This document shows positions 34,231 to 55,827 of a DNA stretch of 64,000 nt, piece by piece. A program made the translations under genes and the position numbers. Each line of letters begins with the position of its first letter. Positions within the stretch are counted from its first letter, which is position 1. The stretch is taken from contig NZ_CP034449.1 of assembly GCF_003952425.1 (NCBI RefSeq), positions 7,118,001 to 7,182,000 on the forward strand, given 5' to 3'. The notes under the pieces are model-generated. The model was not told the DNA's origin. It worked only from the letters and a program-made list of their open reading frames with translations, and searched no databases. Source of the DNA: Mesorhizobium sp. M2A.F.Ca.ET.046.03.2.1 (lineage in GTDB: Bacteria; Pseudomonadota; Alphaproteobacteria; Rhizobiales; Rhizobiaceae).

Positions 34231-34914
34231 ATGAGAAGGCCCGCTATTGAAGCCGCCGGGATCGGCGCGGCAGCGGCCGGCGACATGGCGCTGGTGCGCC
34301 GGGCGCTGGCGCGCGATCCGGATGCGTGCCGTGCCATCATCAAGACGCACAATCAGCGGCTCTACCGCATCGCGCGCGGCGTGGTGCGCAACGATGCTGA
34401 GGCCGAGGACATCGTGCAGGAGGCCTATATGCGCGCCTTCGCCAGTCTCGGCGCCTTTCGCGGCGAGGCCTCTTTGTCGACCTGGCTGTCGCGCATCGTC
34501 ATCAACGAGGCGCTCGGCCGGCTGCGCAAGCGCAAGCGCATGGTGGCGATGCCCGAAATCCCGGAGGCGCGGGTCATCCCGTTTCCCCTCAATCCAAGCG
34601 ACGATCCGGAGCGGACAATGGCGCAGCGACAAATCCTCGGGCTTGTCGAACGGGCGACCGACAGCCTTCCCGATGTCTATCGCAGCGTTTTCGTCGCCCG
34701 TGTCATCGAGGGCCTCAGCATCGTGGAAACGGCCGACCTTCTGGGCGTGCGGCCTGAGACAGTTAAGACACGGCTGCACCGGGCGCGCGCCCTGGTGCGC
34801 AAGGCGCTGGACGACGAGATCGGTCCGGTGCTGCTCGACGCCTTCCCCTTCGCCGGCCGGCGCTGCGAGCGGCTGACGCAGGCGGTGATGAAGCGCTTGG
34901 GTTTCGAAGGCTGA
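34231..34914 (+). CDS. ECF-type RNA polymerase sigma factor
   Basis: A 227-residue sigma-70 family ECF protein. Region 2 lies near 30-100 (RLYRIARGVVRNDAEAEDIVQEAYMRAFASLGAFRG) and region 4 near 140-195 (LPDVYRSVFVARVIEGLSIVETADLLGVRPETVKTRLHRAR). ATG 34231 follows GGGGGATCGAGCG. No anti-sigma gene is adjacent: the next genes encode a DUF4142 protein and a cupredoxin. It also lacks the PhyR/NepR context of EcfG, so it is a separate stress sigma. Confidence 0.92.
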   Translation: MRRPAIEAAGIGAAAAGDMALVRRALARDPDACRAIIKTHNQRLYRIARGVVRNDAEAEDIVQEAYMRAFASLGAFRGEASLSTWLSRIVINEALGRLRKRKRMVAMPEIPEARVIPFPLNPSDDPERTMAQRQILGLVERATDSLPDVYRSVFVARVIEGLSIVETADLLGVRPETVKTRLHRARALVRKALDDEIGPVLLDAFPFAGRRCERLTQAVMKRLGFEG

Positions 34915-52346: not shown

Positions 52347-52434
52347 AGCCCTGACTTTTTCTGGGATGATCGAGAACGGGCATCGAACCTGTCTATAGTC
52401 GCGACGGGGGTACGGCGGTGGCGGGTTCATCTCA
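52347..52434 (+). repeat. shared promoter/leader module, copy 1
   Basis: AGCCCTGACTTTTTCTGGGA, then TGATCGAG, GTCTATAGTCGCGACGG and GGTGGCGGG align nearly base for base with 55745-55827 on the minus strand. Contains a 6-codon GTG-started mini-frame (52418-52438) that overlaps the next ATG as ATGA. Compared with copy 2 it lacks one base before CATCTCAAT. Confidence 0.85.
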
Positions 52435-53169
52435 ATGAAGATCAGGGCGCAGGCTGCCCGGCGATGGCCGGCGCGAGGCTTACGGATTCTCGAATTCGCC
52501 TCGACGGCCGATTTCGCGCGCCTTTCCCTTCCGAGAAATACGCTGGCCACGGCGCTTCTGGCATCGGCCATGCTGCTGCCGGCGGCCACTTCGAGCCATG
52601 CCGCGTCGGTCCTCCCAGAGCCGCGAGACGAGCTCCACCAGCCGGATGCGAAAGCCATGCTGCAGGACGCCAAGCGCGCGCTTCTGGCGGCCAATGGCGG
52701 CAACGGTGGCGGAAATGGCGGTGGCAACGGTGGCGGGAACGGCGGCAATGGCGGGAACGGCGGCAACGGAGGGAACGGAGGGAACGGCGGCAATGGAGGG
52801 AATGGCGGTAACGGTGGCAACGGCGGAAACGGTGGCAATGGAGGGAACGGCGGCAACGGAGGGAATGGCGGCAACGGAGGGAATGGCGGCAACGGAGGGA
52901 ATGGCGGCGGAAACGGTGGCGGCAATGGCGGCGGCACCGGAAACGGCGGCGGCAATGGCGGGGGCGCCGGAAACGGTGGCGGCAACGGCGGTAGCGCCGG
53001 AAACGGCGGGAGCAATGGCGGCGGCACCGGAAACAGTGGCGGCAATGGTGGTAACGCTGGAAACGGCGGCAGCAATGGCGGCCATGGCGGCGGCCATCAC
53101 GACTCCAATGTCGGCCATTCGGATGGCGGGCCCCGCTCCTGCGGATCATCCCCGCGAGTGTCTTGCTGA
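52435..53169 (+). CDS. secreted Gly-Gly-Asn repeat protein
   Basis: A 244-residue protein. Residues 1-57 include a signal-like segment (LATALLASAMLLPAATSSHA), then a short helical stretch (LPEPRDELHQPDAKAMLQDAKRALLAA). Residues about 86-222 are nearly pure NGG/NGGG repeats. The tail has a His-rich part (HGGGHHDSN). It should be a disordered or polyglycine-II-like surface or matrix protein. Its first 20 codons and leader resemble those of the gene starting at 55755. Confidence 0.8.
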   Translation: MKIRAQAARRWPARGLRILEFASTADFARLSLPRNTLATALLASAMLLPAATSSHAASVLPEPRDELHQPDAKAMLQDAKRALLAANGGNGGGNGGGNGGGNGGNGGNGGNGGNGGNGGNGGNGGNGGNGGNGGNGGNGGNGGNGGNGGNGGNGGNGGGNGGGNGGGTGNGGGNGGGAGNGGGNGGSAGNGGSNGGGTGNSGGNGGNAGNGGSNGGHGGGHHDSNVGHSDGGPRSCGSSPRVSC

Positions 53170-53272
53170 CGCCGCCGCTTGACCTCGAAGCGCCGCGCGC
53201 CGGAGCGGCAGAAAGCAACGTCCTTCCAGTTTCCTGTTCCGGCTCGCCGCTCCGGCGGCGCGATGAACCGCC

Positions 53273-54439
53273 CTATGGGCCGGTGCGGTAGGCGAAATCG
53301 TCGATAGCGGCCTGCCAGTAGTGCTGCGTGCGGATCTCGAGCCGCGTGATGCGCCTGTAGTCGGCCGCGAAATAGACCAGACCGTTGGCGGACAGCGTCA
53401 GTCGATCCTCATAGGCTGGCTCATCGCCCCGCCAGGCCTTGAGGATGAGCGTCTCGCCCTCAGCGTCGTCCCAGCCGGCGCCGAAATAGGCGCCGGTGAA
53501 ATCGAACGGTTTGTCGCTGAACACCTGCGCGGGATGGCCTGAGCTGTTGTAGGCGATGAATTCGCCCGACATGGTGGTGTTGACGTAGCCCGGGCCGTCG
53601 GTGAAGCGCTGGTGCATGGCAACGAGATTGTACCAGTTGAGCCCGCCATAGCCTGACGGGACCTCGAACACGCCGGGCGACGTCATCAGGTCGTCGAAGC
53701 CGACGACATGCTCCTGGGGCAGCGGCGCCTCGGCCGGTCCGCCCTTGCCGGAGAACGTCGAGAGCACCACCGGCGCCGCGCCGACCACGACATGCCGCCG
53801 CTCGGTCGCCCCGGCGGCCGAGAAATCGACCAGCCATTCGCCGGGCGCCACGGCTGCGCTGAAGCGCCCGTCCGGACCGACCTTGGCGGCGATGCCGACG
53901 CCATCCGGCCCTGTCAGCGAAACGCGCGCCCCGGCGGCGACCGCGCCGCTGATCGTCAGATCCGCCGCAAGCCCGACGGGGTGGGTCGTGGTCTTTGCAA
54001 TCAAGTCGCCCGGCGATCCGGGCGAAACGACATAGTCGCTTTCCTGCGAGGCGTTGCCGGTGGTGACCGAATAGACTGGCGGCGGCACCACGCGGAACGC
54101 ATAGTGCCCGGGATCGACGACTTCGAAATCGCGGTGCATGGCCGACATGCGGAAGTTGGCGAAGCCGCCGGCATTGGTCAGTCGCATGATGGTGCCGGCG
54201 TTCGGCCTGTCGAGCTCGACAGCCACGCGCGACATCGGCCGGTCGCCCAGATCGTAGACGCCGTTCCTGTTGAGGTCGCGGAACACCAGCAGCGATGTGT
54301 TCATCTGGCCGCCTGCGAAGGAATCCCATGTCCGCCTGGGATAATAGTCATTCGCATCGCCGGCACGGGCCACGCCGCAGACCATGGCCAAGCCGGCGGC
54401 GGCGACGACCGCGCCCGGGAACAACGAACCACGCTTCAC
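53273..54439 (-). CDS. secreted SdrD-B-like domain protein
   Basis: A 388-residue protein. Signal peptide (SLFPGAVVAAAGLAMVCGVARA), then an SdrD-B/Cna-B-like segment (LLVFRDLNRNGVYDLGDRPMSRVAVEL) with Ca-binding DxNxNGxYD, further Ig-like stretches (LTISGAVAAGARVSLTGPDG) and a C-terminal lectin/PEP-like domain (GFDDLMTSPGVFEVPSGYGGLNWYN; AIDDFAYRTGP). GTG 54439 follows GGAGGGGAAATTTC and overlaps the HTTM stop (GTGA). Third in the operon. Converges on the GGN-repeat gene. Confidence 0.78.
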   Translation of the reverse strand: MKRGSLFPGAVVAAAGLAMVCGVARAGDANDYYPRRTWDSFAGGQMNTSLLVFRDLNRNGVYDLGDRPMSRVAVELDRPNAGTIMRLTNAGGFANFRMSAMHRDFEVVDPGHYAFRVVPPPVYSVTTGNASQESDYVVSPGSPGDLIAKTTTHPVGLAADLTISGAVAAGARVSLTGPDGVGIAAKVGPDGRFSAAVAPGEWLVDFSAAGATERRHVVVGAAPVVLSTFSGKGGPAEAPLPQEHVVGFDDLMTSPGVFEVPSGYGGLNWYNLVAMHQRFTDGPGYVNTTMSGEFIAYNSSGHPAQVFSDKPFDFTGAYFGAGWDDAEGETLILKAWRGDEPAYEDRLTLSANGLVYFAADYRRITRLEIRTQHYWQAAIDDFAYRTGP

Positions 54440-55341
54440 GAAATTTCCCCTCCGGCGGTCGCCGCCGATCCGATCCCCTGGAGACGCGCGATCACCCTGT
54501 CCACGGCATCGGCATCGAAATAAGCGAGATAGAGCAACGCCATGGTGGCGCTGAACGTGTAGACCGGCAGCGTCACATAGATGATGGCGTGGAAGGCCAG
54601 GCCCGGCAGGACCAGATAGCGCCTCGTGGCGCGAAACGGCAGGCCGAAGGCAAGGCCATATTCGAGCACGACCACGGCGACGGACACGATGGTGGCAAGC
54701 CAGGCAAGGCCGGACGGATAGTCCGAACCGGCGTAAAACCAGAGGAATATCTGCTCGAGCCGCGCGCCGCTCAGAAAAGCGTGGTTCGACTTGTCGAAGG
54801 CGGCGAAGAAATAGAGCACCGAGAGCTGCACCACGATCAGCCGCAGCCCCCACAGATTGCCGCGCTCCGCCGGCGGCGGAACGCCCAAGCGCTCGGCCCG
54901 CGTCACCGCCAAATAGCGGTCCAGCGAATAGGAGCGGTCGCAAGGGGTGAGCGCGATCAGGAGCGCCGCGACGGCAAGCAGATAGGCATGGTGGTGGGTC
55001 CAGGGCTCGCGGCCGAGATCAAAGCCGAAGTAGTAATACATCGCCAGCCCGACCGAGCCGGTCCAGACGGCGGCGAGACGGCTGTGATAGCCGACGAAGA
55101 GCAGGATCGTGGCGAGGAAGAAGTTGGCGGCGAGAAACAGGCCGGCCGGCGACTGGTCCCTATAGAGCAGCAGCTCGCCCGCCCAGCGCGACCAGAACAG
55201 CATCGCCAGGCCGATGCGGATCAGCGCGGACGAACGCGACGAGCCTTTCGTGCCGGCCGCCCAGGCGGCGAAGCGCGCCGCCATGGCCGGCGTCGGACGC
55301 CAGTCGGCGATGGCGTCAGTCGGCGCAGGCATTTTCGGCAT
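54436..55341 (-). CDS. HTTM-domain membrane protein (vitamin K-dependent carboxylase-like)
   Basis: A roughly 301-residue multi-helix protein with about seven helices. LIRIGLAMLFWSRWAGELL, HHHAYLLAVAALLIALTPCDRSYSLD, LSVLYFFAAFDKSNHAFLSG and HAIIYVTLPVYTFSATM follow the HTTM pattern (horizontally transferred transmembrane domain, related to gamma-glutamyl carboxylase). No C-terminal carboxylase catalytic half is obvious, so its activity is open. ATG 55341 or 55332; overlaps the gene before it. Confidence 0.82.
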   Translation of the reverse strand: MPKMPAPTDAIADWRPTPAMAARFAAWAAGTKGSSRSSALIRIGLAMLFWSRWAGELLLYRDQSPAGLFLAANFFLATILLFVGYHSRLAAVWTGSVGLAMYYYFGFDLGREPWTHHHAYLLAVAALLIALTPCDRSYSLDRYLAVTRAERLGVPPPAERGNLWGLRLIVVQLSVLYFFAAFDKSNHAFLSGARLEQIFLWFYAGSDYPSGLAWLATIVSVAVVVLEYGLAFGLPFRATRRYLVLPGLAFHAIIYVTLPVYTFSATMALLYLAYFDADAVDRVIARLQGIGSAATAGGEIS

Positions 55342-55755
55342 CGGTATGGATCGTCTGCCAGCCGCCGCGCGTGCCCAGCCGGGCGCGGACACGGATGTCG
55401 GCGCCCTGCCCTGCGACCGTGCAGAGCCGCTTGATGACGGAAGCCAGGTCCTCTCGGTTCTGGATCCACTTCAGCCCGCCGTTGCGGGGCGCGCCGAGCA
55501 TCCCGAAACGGTCGAGCGGGACAAGCGCGCCGTCGGGCCGCGGATTTCGAAGGAAGCGTCGATGACGTCCAGCCCGATCGCGCTGAACATGGTCCAGGAA
55601 CGCAGCCACGGCGATTGTACCCCGAAGACCTGCTCCGCGGCCGGGCCGGCGATCATGAAGCCCGCGATCGCCATGAAAGCGCAAAGCCGCAAGCGTGCCG
55701 CCGAAAGCCGACCGGCAGGCCGCGCACCTATCCTGATTGAGATGATATCCGCCAC
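55316..55755 (-). pseudogene. HTTM-operon leader gene, exported protein with a frameshift
   Basis: Frame 1 (GTG 55755, after GACGGAGGTGCGCGG) gives MADIISIRIG, a helix (LRLCAFMAIAGFMIAGPAAEQVFG) and SPWLRSWTMFSAIGLDVIDASFEIRGP. The sense then continues in frame 2 as DGALVPLDRFGMLGAPRNGG, KWIQNREDLASVI and ends VRARLGTRGGWQTIHTDAENACAD. One lost G or C in CGCGGCCCGACGG near 55533 accounts for it. Restored, it would be about 146 residues with an N-terminal helix. Stop overlaps the HTTM start region. Confidence 0.75.
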
Positions 55756-55827
55756 CCGCGCACCTCCGTCGCGATCATAGACCGGTTCAACGCCCGGTCC
55801 TCGATCGTCCCAGAAAAAGTCAGGGCT
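55745..55827 (-). repeat. shared promoter/leader module, copy 2
   Basis: On the minus strand, AGCCCTGACTTTTTCTGGGA, CGATCGAGGACC, GGTCTATGATCGCGACGGAGG and GGTGGCGGATATC align with 52347-52434 in the same order. Extends into the first codons of the operon. See finding. Confidence 0.85.

Follow-up and report, generated by a model that had tools for sequence, protein, structure and literature searches.

To our knowledge, the clients of bacterial HTTM proteins are mostly not known, and the closest described systems are those in which a protein of this family (PF05090), or the related human vitamin K-dependent gamma-glutamyl carboxylase (GGCX), is tied to a secreted protein or peptide. SdpB of Bacillus, which we take to be an HTTM protein, belongs to one such system, and sdp loci presumably pair HTTM with peptide maturation. 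The SdpA-SdpB-SdpC and YitP-YitO-YitM systems each combine a small protein, an HTTM protein and a secreted precursor in one locus; yitPOM is described as a paralogue of sdpABC (PMC6818787). Here, we analyse a convergent four-gene locus in a 64,000-nt stretch of the genome of Mesorhizobium sp. M2A.F.Ca.ET.046.03.2.1 (7118001-7182000 of contig NZ_CP034449.1; hereafter the window), in which a start region is shared, as an inverted copy, between GGN, a gene for a glycine-rich protein, and a facing operon of the genes exp, HTTM and SdrB.

The locus resembles each of these systems in part. As in GGCX, the HTTM protein has a predicted membrane-domain fold with invariant equivalents of Lys218 and His160, and its probable client would be a secreted protein; in contrast to GGCX, it has 301 aa and aligns to GGCX residues 41-331 or fewer, the module contains a small partner (exp), and the candidate client GGN is low in Glu. 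It differs from the Sdp and Yit loci in having convergent units with a duplicated leader, a Gly-Asn repeat precursor with a Cys tail, and an exp protein that fits no named family. The GG-X triplets of GGN presumably resemble the Gly-Gly-X polyproline-II bundle proteins of the springtail antifreeze type, although GGN is bacterial and has a signal-like stretch, a long n-region and a Cys tail. Further, CrdG, the HTTM protein of the Corynebacterium lactis linaridin locus, is assumed to help mature a secreted peptide (PMC9927463), a tie that the present locus may share, whereas the precursor and the partner enzymes of the linaridin locus are others. The module would be a variant of HTTM maturation loci already known. 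Within a limited literature collection, SdpB and HTTM were not found treated together, the one paper naming both HTTM and Mesorhizobium deals, by its listing, with something else, and the two nearest to a glycine-rich surface protein of Mesorhizobium do not name HTTM.

Results

A duplicated start region precedes two facing transcription units

The duplicated piece comprises a promoter/leader of about 93 bp and about 30 N-terminal codons, with 82-84% identity between its copies, and sits before the GGN repeat gene and before the exp-HTTM-SdrB operon. The features are, in window coordinates:

52347..52434, plus strand: leader copy A, with upstream block CTGACTTTTTCTGGGATGATC (52351-52371), a -10-like TATAGT (52394-52399) and a 5' untranslated region with GGGGGT
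52435..53169, plus strand: GGN, Gly-Gly-X repeats (X mostly Asn), with a long n-region, then by eye a signal-like stretch, and the C-terminus ...RSCGSSPRVSC-stop
53140..53166, plus strand: C-terminal Cys-X7-Cys tail of GGN
53273..54439, minus strand: SdrB-like secreted protein, with SdrD_B and CarboxypepD_reg matches slightly below the cut-offs; 4-nt overlap with the end of HTTM
54436..55341, minus strand: HTTM, membrane protein (PF05090) with a predicted gamma-glutamyl carboxylase fold and invariant K184 and H118
55316..55755, minus strand: exp, small membrane-anchored protein before HTTM, whose frames break near 55534-55542
55735..55827, minus strand: leader copy B, with upstream block (55823-55803), a -10-like TATGAT (55779-55774, by eye), the GTG of exp (55755-55753) and its first codons

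The stretches 52347-52445 (plus) and 55827-55735 (minus) align in inverted orientation and contain every block named by an earlier, sequence-only reading of this DNA, whose claim of a leader duplicated in inverted orientation is borne out. In particular, when the entire 7.37-Mb genome (one contig) was searched by blastn with a 116-bp query, it yielded two leader copies (100% and 82%, E 4.2e-23) and no third full copy; the next match was an 18-mer (E 0.06) and the others were short. Moreover, CTGACTTTTTCTGGGA, allowing up to 3 mismatches, occurs at 3 sites in the window against 0.30 expected (two exact, and one with 3 mismatches at 34911), a number reached in 0 of 100 shuffles. The blocks conserved in both copies are CTGACTTTTTCTGGGA, GTCTATA (the -10), GGGGGT, which is likely the ribosome site, and the start.

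In relatives, A-B identity climbs at the CCTGAC block from 0.42 to 0.81-0.94. The similarity enters the coding part, as proposed earlier, and its length is put at about 30 codons instead of the 20 or so first suggested. Local protein alignments of GGN with exp within one genome stop at residues 19-35 in 10 of 20 pairs, at residue 52 in one and at residues 72-92 in nine, the last group because the aligner continues through hydrophobic stretches, and we set the length of the duplicated coding part at about 30 codons.

Distribution and conservation

A genus search scoring six candidates per genome located the leader in 25 of 146 Mesorhizobium genomes (47 matches), with all 47 matches in the module or a module relic; when the fetched loci were searched more sensitively, 24 of the 25 proved to have two copies. 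The two leaders face each other on one contig in 22 genomes and lie on two contigs in G111 and G122. The exp gene occurs in 24 of the 146 genomes, which are the leader genomes minus G056, and GGN adjoins exp in every one of them. Accordingly, GGN and the HTTM operon, whose separation in relatives would have spoken against the sequence-only reading, stand together in 24/24 Mesorhizobium genomes with exp and in 3/3 outgroup genomes. On the GGN side the module adjoins an Lrp gene in 24 of 25 genomes, the exception being G105, whose contig stops at this point, and an SPW gene lies on the opposite side in most loci whose flank is long enough. An HTTM search of the species collection returned 18 loci, from Mesorhizobium, two metagenome bins (Hyphomicrobiales bacterium and Alphaproteobacteria bacterium) and one Aestuariivirga, while a plasmid search with the whole region gave, among the 20 listed of 268 records, matches solely where the repeat lies.

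The genome G056 carries a single leader relic (locus L058, 5675-5773) with about 27 codons left, beside Lrp; its module is otherwise gone.

Origin and age of the duplication

Three of 69 genomes searched provide outgroups, namely Aestuariivirga (locus L091/L154) and two other members of its family (L152 and L153). In all three, exp, HTTM and SdrB keep the order seen in Mesorhizobium, with GGN convergent behind, and their stretches contain no Mesorhizobium neighbour genes and no leader match. The first 45 residues were compared at z>=3, with a GGN set without L051 and the window (GTG out of frame) and an exp set without L091 and the window. Mesorhizobium exp matched outgroup exp in 69/69 pairs; Mesorhizobium GGN matched its own exp in 20/20, outgroup exp in 44/66 and outgroup GGN in 2/66 pairs, and outgroup GGN matched outgroup exp in 0/3. 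The N-terminus of Mesorhizobium GGN therefore resembles outgroup exp and rarely outgroup GGN, which by this comparison traces the coding part of the duplicated piece to exp, whose start Mesorhizobium GGN acquired.

The upstream-block profile peaks at -99 to -109 before outgroup GGN (p 0.001, 0.010 and 0.039 against 6000 background segments, with two of the three outgroups being close relatives and 12 profile tests in all). Before outgroup exp the same profile is not significant (p 0.15 to 0.79), and the -10-region profile is significant in 0/6 outgroup upstream regions. The leader may be a composite, its upstream block giving a weaker hint of an origin on the GGN side. For example, GTGACTTTTTTTGGGTGG, about 107 nt before the GGN gene of L153, resembles the Mesorhizobium upstream block (p 0.001).

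Within the promoter part, the nearest copy to A is another A in 22/25 cases and the nearest copy to B another B in 22/24, and copies A and B share an identity of 0.766 when taken from one genome (22 pairs) and 0.763 when taken from different genomes. These values place the duplication before the species split and fit a single old event, after which both copies would have been held by selection on the same blocks while evolving as separate lines. Continuing gene conversion between the arms is unsupported, as A-B identity is equal within and between genomes.

Promoters and start sites

Shared control of the two convergent units, which the sequence-only reading had proposed, is likely and well supported by conservation, as 24 genomes retain the two leaders with promoter and start blocks in common. 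As GGN carries a copy of the neighbouring operon's promoter, GGN and the HTTM operon are probably made together, and they may act on one another. For copy A, a promoter scan lists a 9-of-12 promoter-like pair that ends at the -10. The exp frame starts at the GTG at 55755-55753. Most relatives also begin GGN with a GTG, but in this genome, as in L051, a 1-bp deletion has shifted that codon out of frame, and GGN here starts with ATG.

Elsewhere in the genome, the upstream block has a near-copy with 2 mismatches at 1288438-1288458 and two with 3 mismatches, and the control pattern has 0. The near-copy at 1288438 lies about 40 nt before the ATG of a small frame, where the rest of the leader is absent; it is possibly a further target of the same regulator, or chance. 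Further, GAAC-N7-GAAC, which we take to be a LexA-like direct repeat of alphaproteobacteria, lies at window positions 52374-52388, between the upstream block and the -10 of copy A, and is an open lead that we do not use here. It is exact in 10/25 A and 2/24 B copies, has at most one mismatch in 20/25 A and 11/24 B copies and 2-3 mismatches in the remainder, counts that come from related copies and carry no shuffle control.

The encoded proteins

The HTTM protein scores 48.6 bits against PF05090 (gathering cut-off 27.7), and the Aestuariivirga member scores 48.5. Its predicted structure has the GGCX membrane-domain fold, and K184 and H118, invariant in 31 alignment rows, match GGCX Lys218 and His160, an equivalence that was aligned via the intermediate L144 and numbered by an offset of 31 between two GGCX rows. 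The HTTM profile has no match among PDB sequences, so the link to GGCX rests on the intermediate and the fold. The predicted fold and the two catalytic residues support the earlier suggestion of kinship to a protein-modifying carboxylase.

The exp protein has 146 aa in most relatives, with two invariant Cys. In this genome one base (55534-55542) splits it into two frames, from either a strain mutation or a sequencing error; of 23 other loci read, 22 have it as a single frame, and in the remaining one a deletion truncates it. No Pfam family matches it, and against NCBIfam neither exp nor HTTM has a match other than a chance one (E 0.18, exp of L051 and L091). Against PDB sequences nothing meaningful was found (best E 0.13), and its predicted model (pLDDT 66) has no fold match below E 0.001. 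A relative of exp (E 7.5e-19, among 7 sequences) stands on a Sulfitobacter indolifex plasmid (L151 5480-7100), in tandem with HTTM and a DCC1-like thiol-disulfide oxidoreductase. DCC-like frames also lie close to HTTM, by eye, in at least 4 of 14 other HTTM stretches from within the order and class (L134, L145, L146, L147); these 14 contain, among the matches listed, no SdrB match and no exp match above the HMMER inclusion threshold.

The SdrB-like protein has a distant paralogue in its own genome (7226428-7227489, 44 kb past the window) with no HTTM, exp or GGN nearby. A SdrB match of some kind occurs in 76 of 146 genus genomes, mostly such a paralogue alone, and the ten stretches fetched around such paralogues or around distant homologues match neither HTTM nor exp. 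Gly-rich frames occur in two of the ten (L119, L120) and are not GGN-like.

GGN ends in a hydrophilic tail rich in Gly, Ser, His and Cys (by eye), and its Cys-X7-Cys spacing is kept in 20 of 24 Mesorhizobium loci (with variants in 2 more) and in 3/3 outgroups. The gap between the convergent ends contains one further feature:

53194..53262, no strand assigned: GC-rich hairpin of 20 pairs, from a fold of the gap, without a T-run

This predicted hairpin is possibly a bidirectional terminator; a terminator scan does not list it.

Discussion

We propose a convergent four-gene module in which the start region of exp was copied before GGN, and matched promoters co-express GGN with a processing pair that matures a client, a proposal to which we give even chances. 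An inverted copy of the exp start region, from the promoter to about codon 30, would have arrived before GGN in an ancestor of a Mesorhizobium species group, which is why promoter, ribosome site and start region are alike in the two units. The matched promoters would then keep the Gly-rich, secreted GGN co-expressed with exp and HTTM, a pair that would work at the periplasmic face with quinone-type redox chemistry, like the human carboxylase. The pair would mature GGN, most likely at or through its Cys-X7-Cys tail, or else the SdrB-like protein, and the product would be a Gly-Gly-X (polyproline-II-type) protein of the periplasm or surface. It is possible on these sequence grounds that the module modifies a surface protein; as to the modification/export module for a cell-surface polymer of the sequence-only reading, there is no export machinery in it. 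A more specific version, in which HTTM and exp do quinone-linked chemistry on the tail to give an anchored or cross-linked envelope matrix, and the start-region copy locked enzyme and client together, seems to us unlikely.

Several observations weigh against the proposal. The module is missing from 122 of 146 genomes and decayed in 4 of 24 (the exp frameshift here, HTTM broken in L053, SdrB broken in L067, and in L055 a deletion that takes out the GGN tail, SdrB, HTTM and the end of exp), and it is therefore dispensable. The residue match comes with an hhalign probability of only 51%, and no frame in the 14 other HTTM stretches or the Sulfitobacter stretch exceeds 27% Gly over 60 residues. GGN has 2-5 Glu, the fused L055 excepted, and no Glu-rich stretch of the kind that the human carboxylase modifies, though HTTM may have other clients. 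In addition, no regulator of the leaders was identified, the -35 of copy A fits 4/6 positions in the promoter scan, and the scan lists nothing at copy B; from these last two points, an activator acting at the upstream block is likely.

HTTM and exp might instead act on the SdrB-like protein of their own operon, with GGN as a structural partner that needs only the same timing. The 4-nt overlap with HTTM and the retention of the SdrB-like gene in three outgroups agree with this alternative, but its distant paralogue stands without HTTM or exp in 10 fetched stretches, so that proteins of this kind can do without the pair, and GGN has stayed next to the operon in 24/24 genomes; we hold the alternative possible, if on the improbable side. 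Our confidence is lower still, and the case doubtful, that HTTM and exp act like SdpA and SdpB of Bacillus sdpABC, releasing from a secreted precursor a small antibacterial peptide, which in this case would be the Cys hairpin at the GGN C-terminus. The two loci are laid out alike, with a small protein, an HTTM protein and a secreted precursor, GGN has a conserved C-terminal Cys pair, and a control search gave PF05090 matches in B. subtilis, which presumably are SdpB and YitO. However, the GGN tail is conserved, not diversified, exp and HTTM lack NCBIfam matches save the chance one, and no immunity gene was recognised among the genes read, in which no search was aimed at one. Moreover, the GGN C-terminus is hydrophilic, whereas SdpC and YitM have a hydrophobic C-terminal domain (PMC6818787). 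A last alternative, which we hold very improbable, is that the leaders represent a dispersed repeat or the inverted ends of a mobile element, with a similarity uninformative on regulation: they are inverted and bound cargo on both sides, and G056 retains one leader with its cargo gone, but Lrp adjoins the module in 24 of 25 genomes, the similarity continues in frame through the start codon and N-terminal codons, no transposase gene lies between the leaders, and a mobile repeat beside unrelated genes, which would have undercut the sequence-only reading, is ruled out by the two copies in this genome, with no further whole-leader copies, and by genus matches confined to module or relic.

In the proposed module of co-expressed client and processing pair, a single-copy HTTM and its small partner are linked by synteny and a copied promoter to one candidate client, whose C-terminal motif is constant, which makes a direct test by gene deletion and mass spectrometry possible in non-pathogenic soil bacteria. 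Together with its outgroups, the case documents a start region that moved between facing genes and was then retained.

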